This document shows positions 42,845 to 51,204 of a DNA stretch of 64,000 bases, piece after piece. The position numbers and the translations under genes are program-made. The notes beneath the pieces were generated by a model. That model saw only the letters and a program-made list of their open reading frames with translations, had not been told where the DNA came from and ran no database searches. The DNA comes from Rhizomicrobium sp. (GTDB lineage: Bacteria > Pseudomonadota > Alphaproteobacteria > Micropepsales > Micropepsaceae): NCBI GenBank assembly GCA_037200985.1, contig JBBCGJ010000001.1:3448756-3512755 (forward strand), in the 5' to 3' direction. How positions within the stretch are numbered: the first letter of the stretch is position 1; every line of letters starts with the position of its first letter.

Positions 42845-43960
42845 ATGGTCCAGATCACCAAAGACAACGCCTATGACGCGGTGGCGCCCGACGATTTCCC
42901 CGCGATGCTGAACCCCGCGCGCTACAATGTGCGCTCGACCGCCTTCGACAAGATCATCAGCGCGACCCACGACCATTTCTGGGATCCGCTCGACAAGAAA
43001 TACATCGACTTCGGCGCGCCCTATGACGCGACCGAGAAGATGATCATGCCGGAGAATTTCTTCCCGATCTTCCACACCCGCATCGGCGATACGATGACGC
43101 GCGAACAGAAGATCAAATTCGCCAACGAGGCGACGCGCTGGCAGCTTTCCGCCATCCTGCATGGCGAGCAGGGCGCACTCGCGCTCTCGGCCTCGCTTTG
43201 CCACATCCTGCGCGATCCGGGCGCCCAAGAATACGCCGCCAACCAGACGCGCGAGGAAGCCCGCCACGTCACCGCCTTCGCCGCCTATATCAAGTCGCGC
43301 TGGGGCACGCCGCTGCCCTGCGGCCCGACGCTGCAGTCGCTGCTGACCGAAATGGTCGGCGCGCCGGAGGTCTATAAGAAGATCGTCGGCATGCAGATGC
43401 TGGTCGAAGGCCTCGCCATGGGCGCCTTCGCGACGCTCTATCAGAACGCGCAGGACCCTTTGTTGGTCAAGCTATGTCAACTTGTGATGACCGACGAGGC
43501 GTTCCACCACAAATTCGGCAAGATCTGGGCCGACCGGACGATCCCCAAGCTTTCGAAGGACGAGCAGGCGCTGGTCGAGGACTGGGCGGCGCAGTGCTTC
43601 CAGACGCTGCTGTTCAACCTCATCAACGCCGAGCAGATGCAGACGGTCTATGACAGCGTCGGCATCGACTGGCAGGACGCGCGCGCCGCGATCATGGAGG
43701 CCTTCACCGACGACGACCGCCGCGAAGGCATGAAGCAGTCGGCCAACATCTTCCGCGTGCTGATCAAGACGCTGCTCAACGCCGGCATCATCACCGAGCG
43801 CACCAAGGCGTTCTACGGCATGTATGTCGACATGGACGAGCTGAAGAAGGAAGGCGACCGCATGGTCGGCGACGACATCGCCGAGGAGGGCATCAGATAC
43901 CTCCAGACCATCAACTTCGCCGACCGCTCCAAGGGCGGCGAGCTGCTCGCGGCGGAGTAA
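42845..43960 (+). CDS. Di-iron ferritin-like oxygenase-type protein
   Basis: The 371-aa protein starts MVQITKDNAYDAVAPDDFPA (GGAG upstream). It carries the carboxylate/His ligands of a four-helix di-iron site: Glu108 in HGEQGA, Glu137-Glu138-x-x-His141 in REEARH, Glu189 in VEGLAMG and Asp/Glu217-218 with His221-222 in DEAFHHKFG. The two ExxH-like pairs place it in the ferritin-like superfamily (ribonucleotide reductase R2, AurF and similar N-oxygenases). It is not R2, since the rest does not match. The substrate is unknown. The AraC gene is divergent and a terminator follows. Confidence 0.75.
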   Translation: MVQITKDNAYDAVAPDDFPAMLNPARYNVRSTAFDKIISATHDHFWDPLDKKYIDFGAPYDATEKMIMPENFFPIFHTRIGDTMTREQKIKFANEATRWQLSAILHGEQGALALSASLCHILRDPGAQEYAANQTREEARHVTAFAAYIKSRWGTPLPCGPTLQSLLTEMVGAPEVYKKIVGMQMLVEGLAMGAFATLYQNAQDPLLVKLCQLVMTDEAFHHKFGKIWADRTIPKLSKDEQALVEDWAAQCFQTLLFNLINAEQMQTVYDSVGIDWQDARAAIMEAFTDDDRREGMKQSANIFRVLIKTLLNAGIITERTKAFYGMYVDMDELKKEGDRMVGDDIAEEGIRYLQTINFADRSKGGELLAAE

Positions 43961-44029: not shown

Positions 44030-44803
44030 ATGGACAGGCGGTTCGACGACGGCAGCGCGGGCGATGCGGATTACGGCGCCATCGGCCCCGGCTATGCGGA
44101 TTTCCGCCGGCCCGAGCCGCGCATCGCGGCATTCCTCCATGCGGCGCTGGGCGATGCGAAGACCGTGCTGAATGTCGGCGCGGGCGCCGGCTCCTATGAA
44201 CCGTCCGACCGGATCGTGACTGCCGTGGAACCCTCAGCCCAGATGCGGGCGCAGCGGCCGGCGCACCTGCCGCGCGCCATCGATGCGGTCGCCGAGAAGC
44301 TGCCCTTCGCGGACGGTGCGTTCGATGCCGCGATGACGACCTTCTCGGTGCATCAATGGCCGGACCTCGCCGCGGGCCTGAAGGAGGTGCGGCGCGTGAC
44401 GCGCGGGCCGGTGGCGGTCATGACCGGCGATCCCGAACGGCTCGATTGTTTCTGGCTGAACGACTATGCGCCGGAGGTGATCGCGACCGAGGCGCGCCGC
44501 TATCCGCCGGTCGCGGCCTTCGCGCCGCTCGGCGGCCGCATTGAAGCGATGAACATCCCCATCCCGCTCGACTGCAGCGACGGCTTCAACGAAGCCTATT
44601 ACGGGCGGCCCGAAATGCTGCTCGATCCGAAGGCGCGACGGGCCTGCTCGGCCTGGAGCTTCGTCGCCTCCGAGGCAGTGGCGCGGTTCGAGCGCGACCT
44701 GGCGCGCGATCTCGCCAGCGGCGCCTGGGACGCGAAGCATGGCGCGCTGCGCGCCACGCCGGTCTTTCACGGCTCCCTCCTCTTGATAGTATCGCGGCCA
44801 TGA
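44030..44803 (+). CDS. Class I SAM-dependent methyltransferase
   Basis: The 257-aa product has the N-terminal YGAIGPGYADFRRPEPRI block, then motif I VLNVGAGAGSYEPSD, motif II VTAVEPSAQMRAQR, and FDAAMTTFSVHQWPDLAAGL. These fit Methyltransf_11. The start is ATG 44030 in the tail of the previous terminator, and its stop overlaps the M24 gene by four bases. Substrate unknown; the coupling to a peptidase may be only positional. Confidence 0.85.
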   Translation: MDRRFDDGSAGDADYGAIGPGYADFRRPEPRIAAFLHAALGDAKTVLNVGAGAGSYEPSDRIVTAVEPSAQMRAQRPAHLPRAIDAVAEKLPFADGAFDAAMTTFSVHQWPDLAAGLKEVRRVTRGPVAVMTGDPERLDCFWLNDYAPEVIATEARRYPPVAAFAPLGGRIEAMNIPIPLDCSDGFNEAYYGRPEMLLDPKARRACSAWSFVASEAVARFERDLARDLASGAWDAKHGALRATPVFHGSLLLIVSRP

Positions 44804-45483
44804 GCATTGGAAGTGAGAGGGGGCGCCGCGCCAGGCTGGAAGAGGCCGAAGCAAAAGGACTGGCGCTGTTCGACGCCATCGAGCGCGAAGGCCTGATCGT
44901 GCCCGGCAAGCGCGAGGACGAGCTGAGCGCGGAGATCCACGCCCTCGCCCGCGACCGCTTCGGCGTGAAAGCGCATTGGCACAAGCGCATCGTGCGCGCG
45001 GGGCCGAACACGGTGTGCATCTTCTCCGACGATCCGCCGGTGCACACGATAGCGGAAGACGACCTGGTCTATCTCGATCTCGGCCCGGTGATCGCGGATT
45101 GGGAAGCCGATCTCGGCCGGACCTATGCGCTGGGACGCGATCCGCAAAAGACGGCGCTGGTCGCCGACCTGCCGCGCCTGTTCGACATCGTGGCCGCGCA
45201 CTACCACGCCGCGCCCGACATCACCTGCGAGGCGCTCTATGCCTTCGCGCAGAAGACGGCCGAGGCGGCCGGCTGGCTGTTCGGCGGCGAGATCGCCGGC
45301 CACACGATCCAGGGCCGCTTTCCGCATCCGCCGGTGCCCCGCGCCGGACGGCTGATCGCGGCGGGCAACGCCAGCCGCATGCGCGACCCCGACGCCAAAG
45401 GCGAGGAGCGGCACTGGATCCTGGAGATCCATCTGGTCGACAAGGCGCGAACCTTCGGCGGGTTCTATGAGCGGCTTTTGTAG
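44800..45483 (+). CDS. M24-family metallopeptidase-like protein
   Basis: The 227-aa product has the pita-bread fold signatures: DLVYLDLGPVIADWEADLGRTY with the two Asp ligands, IAGHTIQGRFPHP for the His, and WILEIHLVDKARTFGGFYERLL with the Glu. It lacks the N-terminal creatinase-like domain and is shorter than aminopeptidase P. The catalytic activity cannot be confirmed, since the last metal Glu before the C-terminus is not obvious. It overlaps the methyltransferase and ends 41 bp before mmcB. Confidence 0.8.
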   Translation: MSIGSERGRRARLEEAEAKGLALFDAIEREGLIVPGKREDELSAEIHALARDRFGVKAHWHKRIVRAGPNTVCIFSDDPPVHTIAEDDLVYLDLGPVIADWEADLGRTYALGRDPQKTALVADLPRLFDIVAAHYHAAPDITCEALYAFAQKTAEAAGWLFGGEIAGHTIQGRFPHPPVPRAGRLIAAGNASRMRDPDAKGEERHWILEIHLVDKARTFGGFYERLL

Positions 45484-45488
45484 GTCGA

Positions 45489-45517
45489 TTGACTCTTTCG
45501 TTCCCGAAGTGTTCCAT
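45489..45517 (+). promoter_or_regulatory. SOS box (LexA site) and promoter of mmcB
   Basis: GTTC at 45500-45503 and GTTC at 45511-45514 are separated by exactly seven bases: the direct-repeat LexA box of alphaproteobacteria (GTTCN7GTTC). It overlaps a TTGACT -35 at 45489-45494. The weak -10 TTCCAT is 17 bases further, at 45512-45517. Transcription would start near the mmcB ATG, so the mRNA could be leaderless. Confidence 0.65.
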
Positions 45518-45523
45518 CCCGAT

Positions 45524-45997
45524 ATGGCACTCGTCTCGACGGCAAATGCGGCGGAGGTGGCGCGCGGCGTCAGCCGGCTGCTGCTGCAACTGGGCTTCAG
45601 CCCGATCCTGGAATTCACCCTCGCCAACGGCCGTCGGCTCGACGTCGCCGCGCTGGGCGCCGACGGGACCCTGCTCGGCGTGGAGATCAAGGTGGCCCTC
45701 GCCGACCTGCGCGGCGACACCAAATGGCCCGACTATCTGGAGTTCTGCGAGCACTTCTATTTCGCCATCCCGCCGGATTTCCCCGACGAGCATGTGCCGC
45801 CGGGCACCGGCCTGATCGTCGCCGACAAATATGGCGGCGCCATCGTGCGGCACGCGACGCCGGCGCCGGTGCATGCCAGCCGGCGCAAGGCGGTCATGCT
45901 GCGCTTCGCCAAGGTCGCGGCCGACCGTCTCGCCACCCTGCTCGAATTCGCGGAAGACCCGCGCCAGCCTGCGGTGCTGCCCGATGCCGGTCACTAA
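45524..45997 (+). CDS. mmcB: MmcB-family DNA repair protein
   Basis: The start at ATG 45524 gives 157 aa beginning MALVSTANAAEVARGVSRLL; ATG 45467 would lie inside the previous gene and before the SOS box. It shows the family's LEFTLANGRRLDVAALG, GVEIKVALADLRGDTKWPDYLEFCEHFYFAI and IVADKYGGAIVRHA. The D-(x)n-ExK pattern (DVAALGADGTLLGVEIKV) is that of a PD-(D/E)xK nuclease fold. In Caulobacter a protein of this name gives methyl methanesulfonate/mitomycin resistance. The LexA box upstream fits damage induction. Confidence 0.88.
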   Translation: MALVSTANAAEVARGVSRLLLQLGFSPILEFTLANGRRLDVAALGADGTLLGVEIKVALADLRGDTKWPDYLEFCEHFYFAIPPDFPDEHVPPGTGLIVADKYGGAIVRHATPAPVHASRRKAVMLRFAKVAADRLATLLEFAEDPRQPAVLPDAGH

Positions 45998-46373
45998 GGC
46001 CGATCTGAAGAGGATCGCGCTGTCCTTTCCCGGCGCGCGGGAGGAACCGTCCTACGGCCGGCCCGCCTTCAAGATCGAGAAGAAATTCTTCACCCGGCTG
46101 CGCCGCGAGGACGATTCCATCGTCTGGGTCGTCGATTCGATCGACGAGCGCGACCACCTGCTCGAAATGGACCCAAAGACCTATTTCATCACCGACCACT
46201 ACAAGAACCATCCCAGCGTGCTGGTGCGCATCGCCCGCATCGACAAGCCCATGCTGCGCAAGATGCTGGAGCGCCGCTGGCGCGCGGTGGCGCCGAAGAA
46301 GCTGATCAGGGCGGTCGAAGAGGCGTCGGCGAAGACGCTTCGTACGGGCGCGGCGGCGAGGAGGAAACGTTGA
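45984..46373 (+). CDS. MmcQ/YjbR-family protein
   Basis: The 129-aa product starts MPVTKADLKRIALSFPGARE, the usual start of MmcQ/YjbR proteins. FKIEKKFFTRLRREDD, YFITDHYKNHPSVLVRI and MLRKMLERRWRAVAPKKLI follow. The fold is a double-wing CyaY-like domain, proposed to bind DNA. It overlaps the mmcB stop by 14 bases, so it is in the same SOS-linked operon and may be damage-induced as well. Its molecular role is unknown. Confidence 0.85.
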   Translation: MPVTKADLKRIALSFPGAREEPSYGRPAFKIEKKFFTRLRREDDSIVWVVDSIDERDHLLEMDPKTYFITDHYKNHPSVLVRIARIDKPMLRKMLERRWRAVAPKKLIRAVEEASAKTLRTGAAARRKR

Positions 46374-46405
46374 GGCAGTCCGTCCTTCTGGACTCGTTTC
46401 CTGAT

Positions 46406-46482
46406 TGTCATTCCCGCGCAGGCGGGAATCCAGACGCGGCTGCTCGCCCGGTCGCTGGATGCCCGCCTGCGCGGGCATGACA
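46406..46482. repeat. Palindromic intergenic repeat, GTCATTCCCGCG type
   Basis: TGTCATTCCCGCGCAGGCGGGAATCCAG and CTGGATGCCCGCCTGCGCGGGCATGACA form two hairpins. It is nearly identical in layout to 33695-33776 and 60035-60109. It separates the mmcB operon from regA (convergent genes). Confidence 0.85.
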
Positions 46483-46508
46483 GGCGTAGTTTGAGGGGCT
46501 ATCTCAGC

Positions 46509-47042
46509 CTAACGCGGGCTGCGCTTCGCCAGGATGCGCTGCAGCGTGCGGCGGTGCATGTTGAGGCGGCGTGCCGTCTCCGACACGTTGTGGCCGCACA
46601 ATTCGTAGACCCGCTGGATGTGTTCCCAGCGCACGCGATCCGCCGACATCGGATTCTCCGGCGGCTTGGGCTTGGAGCCGGGCTGCGCCATCAGCGCGGC
46701 CAGGATGTCGTCGGCATCGGCCGGCTTGGGCAGGTAGTCGATGGCGCCGTATTTCACCGCCGCGACGGCGGTCGCGATATTGCCGAAGCCGGTCAGCACC
46801 ACGACGCGGCTGTCGGGCCGCACGACATGCAGCGTCTCCACCACGTCGAGCCCGTTGCCGTCGTCGAGCTTGAGATCCACCACCGCATAGGCCGGCGGCG
46901 CTTCCTTGGCGCGCGCCTTGCCCTCGGCCACGCCCTCGGCGATCATCACGGTGAAGCCGCGCGCTTCCATGGCGCGGGCCAGCCGCTCGCGCAGAGGGCG
47001 GTCGTCCTCGACCAGGAGCAGGGTCTTTTCGTCGCCGCTCAT
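46509..47042 (-). CDS. regA: Redox response regulator, ActR/PrrA/RegA family
   Basis: The 177-aa product starts MSGDEKTLLLVEDDRPLRER. The receiver domain has the acidic pair near the start, the phosphoacceptor Asp56 (VVDLKLDDG), the Thr (VLTGFG) and the Lys (LPKPA). The C-terminal NtrC-like helix-turn-helix is HNVSETARRLNMHRRTLQRI. It controls photosynthesis, respiration, nitrogen and carbon fixation genes in relatives in response to redox. It lies downstream of regB on the same strand with a 144-bp gap that may hold its own promoter. Confidence 0.94.
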   Translation of the reverse strand: MSGDEKTLLLVEDDRPLRERLARAMEARGFTVMIAEGVAEGKARAKEAPPAYAVVDLKLDDGNGLDVVETLHVVRPDSRVVVLTGFGNIATAVAAVKYGAIDYLPKPADADDILAALMAQPGSKPKPPENPMSADRVRWEHIQRVYELCGHNVSETARRLNMHRRTLQRILAKRSPR

Positions 47043-47186
47043 ATTTTGCCTTTGATGTTGCCTTCAGGGGTTCTTGGCTGGCGGTGTCATATACCGCGCA
47101 CCCCCCTGCGACAACCGAAAGCTTCGCCGGAAGTAGTACGTTGTTATGCTTAATGTTTTAATCCTGCGCCTCGATCGGGTCGGGGC

Positions 47187-48569
47187 TCAGCCTTCGCCGC
47201 GTCCGGGAGGGGCTTCGCCGTCGATCACGTTGCGCGGCCACACCGCGCTGACGCGCGCGCCGCCGGAATCGGGATTGACCGCGGCGACCGTCGCGCCGGT
47301 CTGTTCGAGCAAGGTCTTGGCGATGAAGAAGCCGAGCCCCATGCCCTCGTGCTTGTCGAGCGTGCCGGTCGGGCCGATCTCGGTCTCGCCGAGCGCGAAA
47401 TGGCCGGGGCGCGAGGTGATGTAGGGCTCGCCAATGCGCTCGAAAATCTCCGGCGCGAAGCCCGGGCCGTCATCCTCCACCGCGATGCGCAGCAGGCTCG
47501 CATTCCAGCGCGCCTGGATGCACACCCGGCTCTGCGCGAAATCGGCGGCGTTCTCGATGATGTTGCCGAGGCCGTGCAGGAGCTCCGGCGCGCGCCACAC
47601 TTGCGGCATGGCATCACCTTCGACATCGGGCCTGATCTCGATGGCGATCTCCAAGTCTTCGCCGCGATAGGGCTCGGCGAGGTCTTCGAGGAAGGCGCCC
47701 AGCGGCAGGCGCGCGGTCTCGCCCAGAAGCGTCTCTTCCGGATTGGCGAGGCGGGCGAGGATGGCGCGGCAGCGCTCGGCCTGCTCGCGCAGCAGCGCCG
47801 CGTCCTCGGCCTCCGGCGAGCCGCGCGGCAGGGCGCGTTCGAGCTCGCGCGCCACCACCGCGATGGTGCCGAGCGGCGTGCCCAGCTCATGCGCCGCCGC
47901 GGTCGCCAGCGCGCCGATCGAGGCCAGGCGATGCTCGCGCGACAGCGCGAGCTGCGTCGCCGCCAGGCCCGCCGACATCCGCGCGCCCTCGCTCGCGATG
48001 CGCCAGGAATAGATCGAGGTGAATCCGATGCCGATCACCAGCGAGGCCCAGATGCCCGCCAAGTACAGCGTCGGCAGGACCAGCGCCTCGCCCGCCGCCC
48101 AGGGCAGCGGCTTGTGCAACACCGAGATCACGCAGACCGAGGCGAAGGCGATGCCGGCCAGGATCAGCGTATTGCCGAGATTGAGCGTCGCGGCCGCGAT
48201 CACCACCGGCGCCAGGAACATCAGCGCGAAGGGATTCATGATCCCGCCGGTCAGATAGAGCAGCGCCGCGAGCTGCAGCACGTCGAAGCCGAGATAGCCC
48301 GTCGCCTCGCGATTGGTGAGGCGGTGGCTCGCCGGATAGCGCAGCGTGAGCACGATATTGACGACCACGCTGGCCGCGATCGCGCCGGCGCATTGCAGAA
48401 GCGGGAGCGAATAGCCGAAGCCGAAATAGACGATGAACAGCGCCGCCGACTGGCCGCCCACCGCCATCCAGCGCAGATTGGACAGCGTGCGCAGCCGCAC
48501 CCGTCCGCGCGCCGCCGAGGCCGGCGTCGCGGTGAAAGTCCGAAGCCTTGCCCGGTCCGTGTCGCTCAC
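47187..48569 (-). CDS. regB: Redox-sensing histidine kinase, ActS/PrrB/RegB family
   Basis: The 460-aa protein has six membrane helices in the N-terminal 190 residues. The quinone-binding heptapeptide GGIMNPF is at 108-114. The H box has His227 (AAAHELGTPLGTIA). The redox-box Cys267 sits in REQAERCRAIL. HATPase boxes are GNIIENAADFA (N), VEDDGPGFAPEIFERIGEPY (G1) and GMGLGFFIAKTLLEQTGA (G2). It phosphorylates RegA under reducing conditions in relatives. All redox-sensing features known from Rhodobacter RegB are kept. Confidence 0.95.
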   Translation of the reverse strand: MSDTDRARLRTFTATPASAARGRVRLRTLSNLRWMAVGGQSAALFIVYFGFGYSLPLLQCAGAIAASVVVNIVLTLRYPASHRLTNREATGYLGFDVLQLAALLYLTGGIMNPFALMFLAPVVIAAATLNLGNTLILAGIAFASVCVISVLHKPLPWAAGEALVLPTLYLAGIWASLVIGIGFTSIYSWRIASEGARMSAGLAATQLALSREHRLASIGALATAAAHELGTPLGTIAVVARELERALPRGSPEAEDAALLREQAERCRAILARLANPEETLLGETARLPLGAFLEDLAEPYRGEDLEIAIEIRPDVEGDAMPQVWRAPELLHGLGNIIENAADFAQSRVCIQARWNASLLRIAVEDDGPGFAPEIFERIGEPYITSRPGHFALGETEIGPTGTLDKHEGMGLGFFIAKTLLEQTGATVAAVNPDSGGARVSAVWPRNVIDGEAPPGRGEG

Positions 48570-50892: not shown

Positions 50893-51204
50893 TCAGCGCG
50901 GGTACATCAGATAGAGGATGAGGTTGTTGAGGAAGATGCGCAGCAGCTCGACGCAGATCCACACGATGATGGGCGACAGGTCGAGGCCGCGGATCGGCGG
51001 GATGATCCGGCGCACCTGGCGGAACACCGGCTCGGTCAAGGCGTCCAGGATCTGCATGATCTGGCGCGCCACCGGATTGCGGATGTTGAGAATGCCGAAC
51101 GCGACCAGCCAGCTCGCGACCACCGCGATGATGATGATCATGATGTAGAGGTCCGCGACCGTGTTCACGAGCCACAGCAGCGGGGAGAGGAAGACGTTTG
51201 CCAT
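50893..51204 (-). CDS. YggT-family membrane protein
   Basis: Start ATG 51202-51204 gives 103 aa. Two hydrophobic blocks are seen, IMIIIIAVVASWLVAFGI and LDLSPIIVWICVELLRIFL, and between them the family's LTEPVFRQVRRIIPPIRGLD. YggT proteins are inner-membrane proteins linked with osmotic stress and cell envelope. First gene of the yggT-yggU-folD operon. Confidence 0.88.
   Translation of the reverse strand: MANVFLSPLLWLVNTVADLYIMIIIIAVVASWLVAFGILNIRNPVARQIMQILDALTEPVFRQVRRIIPPIRGLDLSPIIVWICVELLRIFLNNLILYLMYPR

Follow-up and report, generated by a model that had tools for sequence, protein, structure and literature searches.

The locus lies in a 64-kb stretch of DNA (the window) from a soil bacterium of the genus Rhizomicrobium (Micropepsaceae, Alphaproteobacteria), whose genome comprises 4.64 Mb in one contig. 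On the plus strand, mmcB (45524-45997; 157 amino acids), which encodes a PD-(D/E)XK-type nuclease-like protein of family PF06319, is followed by yjbR (MmcQ/YjbR, DUF419; 45984-46373; 129 amino acids), a member of PF04237. A sequence-only reading of this DNA had proposed that the second gene overlaps the first by 14 bases, which is the case (45984-45997). It had also placed a perfect GTTC-N7-GTTC box 10 to 24 bases ahead of mmcB, and we found this to be correct. The LexA-type SOS box, GTTCCCGAAGTGTTC, occupies 45500-45514 of the plus strand, agrees at 8/8 defined bases, and spans -24 to -10, counted from the mmcB ATG (45524), leaving a gap of 9 nt. It sits between a putative -35 element, TTGACT (45489-45494, plus strand; read from the sequence), and a putative -10 element, TTCCAT (45512-45517, plus strand), a weak one read by eye, with a 17-bp spacer. 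Position 45489 is the first base of the TTGACT that fits a -35 element, not the start of a gene. By eye, the putative -10 of relatives in the genus reads TCTAAT or TCCAAT. Given the spacer and this -10, transcription might begin at about the A of the mmcB ATG, although this is a weak prediction. No Shine-Dalgarno sequence was seen by eye ahead of that ATG; together with a start so close to it, this means that the mmcB mRNA is perhaps leaderless. A sigma-70 consensus scan and a terminator scan of 45400-46520 returned no promoter and no terminator, and no Rfam family scored above gathering in 44800-47200.

Upstream, on the same strand, is a gene for an M24-type peptidase homologue (44800-45483; PF00557, E = 1.4e-18), whose stop lies 16 bp ahead of the box. 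Downstream, on the minus strand and convergent with mmcB-yjbR, is a response regulator gene of the actR/prrA/regA type (46509-47042; NF033791, E = 5.3e-94), which is part of an actR/regB pair. The yjbR-actR intergenic region carries, at 46400-46485, the inverted repeats cattcccgcgcaggcgggaatccag ... gcccgcctgcgcgggcatgac, which by eye resemble a dispersed palindromic repeat. Elsewhere in the window, 42845-43960 encodes an AurF-like (PF11583) oxygenase homologue that also gives weak matches to the ribonucleotide reductase beta subunit.

Both proteins fall into known families. MmcB, scanned as the longer open reading frame (ORF) 45467-45994, matches PF06319 (MmcB-like) at 143 bits against a cut-off of 22 (E = 7.6e-42). 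Residues D40, E54, and K56 are invariant in 13 aligned sequences, and we read them as a candidate PD-(D/E)XK core. The MmcB structure model (mean pLDDT 89) fits SPO1766 (3dnx), with weak matches also to two nucleases, PaqCI and NucS/EndoMS; the MmcB profile also finds 3dnx by sequence, with an E value of 5.1e-39. YjbR, scanned as the longer ORF 45831-46370, has PF04237 as its only Pfam match, at 38.1 bits against a cut-off of 30.1. The protein is small, consists of one domain, and has a basic tail. Its model (mean pLDDT 90) has the predicted YjbR (double-wing) fold, and its best Foldseek matches are two members of the same Pfam family, E. coli YjbR (2fki) and Deinococcus radiodurans DR2400 (2a1v); these matches are modest, with query TM scores of 0.62 and 0.64 and E values of 6e-3 and 9e-3, respectively. 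A PDB sequence search with YjbR alone gave no match at E values up to 1, and NCBIfam held no family for either protein at E values up to 0.001. Among 14 control genomes, 7 were matched by PF04237, and the Caulobacter control genome was matched by PF06319.

The same kind of box is known from a related system. According to a review (PMC9578287), the SOS box of Caulobacter crescentus is GTTCN7GTTC, and its mmcB, which is SOS regulated and protects from mitomycin C, encodes a PD-(D/E)XK endonuclease that also mediates cisplatin resistance. Rhizomicrobium belongs to the same bacterial class as Caulobacter, and its mmcB has the same kind of box and, very likely, the same regulation.

We then considered how much a single GTTC-N7-GTTC word means in this DNA. 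The pattern occurs twice in the 64-kb window, against a shuffle mean of 1.59, which is chance level. The whole genome holds 99 exact matches, and the pattern read backwards scores 65, which makes chance the probable source of most single matches. Of these 99, 49 fall outside called genes, and next to 35 of the 49 a gene begins no more than 250 bp away in one direction or the other. The genes around the boxes were called with a home-made codon model trained on the annotated genes of the window, so that starts, and hence distances between box and gene, are approximate; at position 3785020 (L326, L366), where a minus-strand gene had been missed by the gene calling, the ORFs were read by hand. Exact boxes in either orientation precede lexA (by about 67 bp), recA (157), uvrA (173), ssb (89), and uvrD (26). 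Another adjoins an ORF of 254 amino acids without a family, which is followed by a Y-family polymerase gene, an arrangement resembling imuAB. The genome encodes RecA and gives a single LexA match over the cut-off, with LexA DNA-binding and S24 domains, and the lexA and recA genes of this organism are thus themselves boxed. Boxes at genes seemingly unrelated to repair (LytB, polyprenyl synthetase, an MFS transporter, PrkA, and a P450) are probably chance matches. The Pfam scan covered 27 of the 42 gene/box entries, mmcB included; the other 15 are in L020, L030 (two), L287 (two), L291 (an ORF of 65 amino acids), L293 (an ORF of 95 amino acids), L299, L308:5016-6230, L309 (one ORF twice), L313:1640-1966, L323 (two), and window 50896-51204. 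As a separate observation, an exact box at G000:C1:3846641-3846655 (L328; L367:2642) lies about 37 bp before the called start of a gene for a BglII-like restriction endonuclease (PF09195, E = 1.7e-43), which adjoins an MT-A70 methyltransferase gene. This restriction system is possibly under SOS control, but a longer reading frame would place the box inside the gene.

Among relatives, we read one mmcB locus per genome across the family Micropepsaceae. The gene is present in 80 of 96 family genomes, and an exact box lies within 250 bp ahead of it in 29 of the 80 (30 of 81 entries when our own locus is counted twice). Within Rhizomicrobium, the exact box is found within 130 bp ahead of mmcB in 28 of 57 loci, all at one place, and the remaining 29 loci lack it; in 4 of these 29 (L049, L062, L090, and L107), a box with a single mismatch lies at roughly that position. 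The check that the sequence-only reading had set, whether relatives keep the box, gives a mixed result: about half of the genus loci have it in exact form. The 57 loci are the 60 genus genomes with mmcB minus three with broken frames: L109 (box present, no yjbR found), L110 (without either), and L111 (yjbR present, box absent). L040 belongs to another genus, although its very long branch falls inside the genus clade, and is not among the 57; the row for the window itself, which is identical to L060, was dropped from the tree and the two-by-two count.

The spacing and the surroundings of the box are nearly fixed. A TTGA-type hexamer starts 9 to 11 bp before it in 26 of the 28 boxed genus loci, and by eye the ATG follows 9 to 10 nt after it in 27 of them and 13 nt after it in one. 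GTTC repeats with other spacers (3 to 6 and 8 to 13) are absent from the 57 loci, except for one locus with a spacer of 11. Among direct repeats with a spacer of 7, GTTC leads with 28 loci, followed by TGTT with 11 and TTCC with 9, both of which look like shifted readings of the GTTC site. As many as 21 of the 57 loci, however, share an unrelated control word pair at that distance (TGAT/TCCA), owing to the conserved start of mmcB. The count of 28 is therefore no proof by itself, and the spacer and the place carry the argument.

A chance match at mmcB, with the gene outside LexA control in this organism, is the alternative to weigh. The counts in the window and in the genome would fit it, as would the 29 genus loci without an exact box. 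What speaks against it is that, where the box occurs, it has the same place before the ATG and keeps its distance to the TTGA hexamer, that GTTC heads the list of direct repeats, that core SOS genes are among the boxed genes, and that mmcB is an SOS gene in Caulobacter according to the review text cited above (PMC9578287). An intergenic place 9 nt before a gene, the company of boxed SOS genes, and a conserved position raise this box above chance, and we regard a coincidental match as very improbable. LexA control of mmcB, as had been proposed, is well supported by the sequence and agrees with the Caulobacter work in that review (PMC9578287). SOS control of mmcB here, of the known kind, is very likely on this evidence.

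A lexA match is present in 87 of the 96 family genomes, and an exact box precedes lexA in 31 of 31 loci checked (the 30 family lexA loci returned plus our own), out of the 87 genomes with a match; the specificity of LexA in the family thus looks stable. In eight genus genomes (G022, G030, G032, G043, G048, G069, G079, and G082), lexA is boxed but mmcB has no exact box, so the LexA switch at mmcB is dispensable. In four unboxed loci (L095, L100, L102, and L104), the mmcB start by eye seemingly overlaps the end of the M24 gene, and mmcB may therefore have joined the M24 transcript there. We also noted two genus genomes, G071 and G080 (95% and 99% complete), in which a lexA match was not found; both have the mmcB-yjbR pair with no exact box (L102 and L103), and a loss of the SOS system is possible in them.

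The pairing of the two genes is more constant than the box. In 50 of the 57 Rhizomicrobium loci, yjbR lies directly after mmcB, and 28 of the 29 unboxed loci keep it. This adjacency and the overlap support the mmcB-yjbR operon that had been proposed, and we consider it very likely that the two genes form one transcription unit; our literature searches did not turn up this arrangement, and it was seen in one genus only. In a collection of named genomes, many of them the same as those above, yjbR lies within 250 bp of mmcB in 47 of 53 genus-like loci and in 0 of 27 others, and the box is present in 24 of the 53, the genus-like split having been made by identity. The cultured strain Rhizomicrobium electricum DSM 21034 has both the box and the mmcB-yjbR pair.

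Box and gene were also followed on a tree of MmcB (149 columns; 36 of 74 inner branches open). Its 77 rows comprise 22 with box and yjbR, 6 with the box only, 28 with yjbR only, 19 with neither, and 2 that are unboxed with the yjbR state unknown. Rough fewest-change counts on this tree are 9 for the box and 8 for yjbR. With the pair occurring without the box in 28 loci and the box without yjbR in 6, the two are not tied to each other. This speaks against tying yjbR strictly to the SOS response and in favour of a link between yjbR and mmcB.

The gene order around yjbR suggests how it came to lie behind mmcB. In genus loci, actR is found downstream of mmcB in 45 of 57 within the stretch covered. 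Several loci (L038, L042, L048, L054, L059, L077, and L091) have mmcB followed at once by convergent actR, with no yjbR; this is likely the older order, with actR as its marker. Most simply, yjbR would have entered the space separating mmcB from actR early in the history of the genus, with later losses in a few lineages. Among the six boxed loci without yjbR, actR comes next in L054, L059, and L081, and in L046, L071, and L079 none of the five window neighbour genes searched for was found. The yjbR slot itself holds two sequence types: of 37 other YjbR proteins aligned, 24 are 41 to 74% identical to that of the window and 13 are 23 to 36% identical. The divergent type (L050, L052, L058, L083, L087, and others) was observed in a clade of 23 rows, of which only 3 have the exact box. 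Separately, two yjbR-like stretches stand in tandem downstream of mmcB in L065, L093, and L101.

Outside the family, the survey of the class found MmcB in 181 of 387 genomes, 175 of them outside Micropepsaceae. We examined 90 of these 175 loci, the 30 best scoring plus 60 picked to spread over families, each with 1.0 to 1.5 kb upstream and 1.5 to 2.5 kb downstream where the contig allowed. YjbR was beside mmcB in 0 of the 90 loci (one of which, L197, offers only 77 bp beyond the match). Between -300 and +30 bp of the aligned-core start, 10 of the 90 had an exact box in one orientation or the other, compared with a single locus of the 90 for the reversed word; by eye, the position of the box was promoter-like only in L146, L153, L196, and L200. 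The overlapping yjbR of Rhizomicrobium mmcB is a pairing that none of these 90 loci showed.

To our knowledge, the YjbR family has no established function. The name MmcQ comes from the Streptomyces mitomycin cluster, and for this reason the name gives no support to a link with DNA damage. The MmcB of that cluster is an acyl carrier protein (PMC8621148), not the PF06319-type MmcB. YjbR has been proposed (PMC7641849) to bind DNA through the double-wing fold and to be structurally like the DNA-binding domain of T4 MotA. The same paper (PMC7641849) describes MmcQ/YjbR-EVE fusions and, as rare cases, YjbR joined to nuclease domains, much as yjbR stands beside a nuclease gene here; the EVE fusions are mostly from Firmicutes and gammaproteobacteria, whereas YjbR is the sole Pfam match in the protein of the window. 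The yjbR gene of E. coli K-12 comes after yjbQ and converges on uvrA, with 34 bp between the two (NC_000913.3:4270658-4273871, L365), and we take this closeness to uvrA as coincidence; unlike it, the Rhizomicrobium gene is in an operon behind a LexA-type box. Among genes that respond to iron, a table in PMC3751524 places a Caulobacter DUF419 gene, CC_0993, beside msrA, under oxidative stress. PMC11870441, considered as a further source on DUF419, was set aside: the match in its text is to DUF4198 only, not to DUF419. A literature search, with most subscription papers outside it, did not find YjbR with LexA or MmcQ with SOS together.

From these data, mmcB-yjbR is probably a LexA-repressed two-gene operon. 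By analogy with established SOS biology, LexA bound here would occupy the space between the -35 and -10 elements and obstruct RNA polymerase, until DNA damage freed the promoter through RecA-stimulated cleavage of LexA. The transcript would start at or next to the mmcB ATG, perhaps without a leader, and yjbR would be translated by coupling via the 14-bp overlap. The last step concerns the YjbR protein: judged by its fold and its place in the operon, its most likely role would be that of a small protein that binds DNA and assists MmcB where crosslinks or other lesions occur. We hold this helper role tentatively, at somewhat less than an even chance. The sequence-only reading had gone further and linked the MmcQ/YjbR family to DNA damage. 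This wider claim is weaker than the operon behind the box at this locus; what counts against it is the restriction to one genus, the 29 unboxed genus loci, nearly all with yjbR, and the 6 boxed loci without it. The other YjbR genes of this genome, which has five YjbR-family matches in all, count against it too: over the 400 bp ahead of their YjbR domain, the four other paralogs have neither an exact box nor one with a single mismatch. The link is therefore one of yjbR to MmcB and, through MmcB, to DNA damage in part of the genus.

Two other readings compete with the helper step only, and not with the LexA-controlled operon. One is that mmcB is the only functional SOS target and that yjbR is a passenger through the overlap whose own role lies outside DNA damage and might, for instance, be related to redox or iron. 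The pair without the box, the box without yjbR, the confinement of the pairing to one genus, and the unboxed paralogs all fit such a passenger, and so does the position of Caulobacter CC_0993 beside msrA (PMC3751524). However, yjbR stays beside mmcB in most genus loci, those without the box included, which points to joint use of the two proteins. This argument is not a strong one, since actR is also found downstream of mmcB in most of these loci, and we consider a passenger yjbR possible, though doubtful. The published likeness to the DNA-binding domain of T4 MotA (PMC7641849), together with the small, single-domain form and the basic tail of the protein, would also suit a YjbR that regulates this operon or other damage genes and stands outside the repair machine. 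No second conserved motif was seen by eye at the promoter in the genus lines, however, and a regulator of this kind appears quite unlikely. Of these readings, we favour a helper of MmcB. A role of YjbR in DNA repair is plausible as a hypothesis, but box and gene have been lost independently of each other, which weakens it. The most specific version, in which MmcB and YjbR would be the two subunits of an SOS-induced crosslink-repair module, with YjbR binding the lesion or junction and MmcB cutting, is speculative and on present evidence rather unlikely.

SOS control of mmcB was already known from Caulobacter; what is new here is yjbR as the second gene of the mmcB operon. The data also suggest that in Rhizomicrobium LexA control of mmcB is changeable and the mmcB-yjbR pair persistent, so that the conserved unit would be the pair and not its regulation. 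For the widespread YjbR family, which has solved structures, a LexA-type box and an operon with a relative of a crosslink-protection nuclease provide a concrete hypothesis. If the two-subunit module were true, it would give the MmcQ/YjbR family its first physiological role, in DNA repair.
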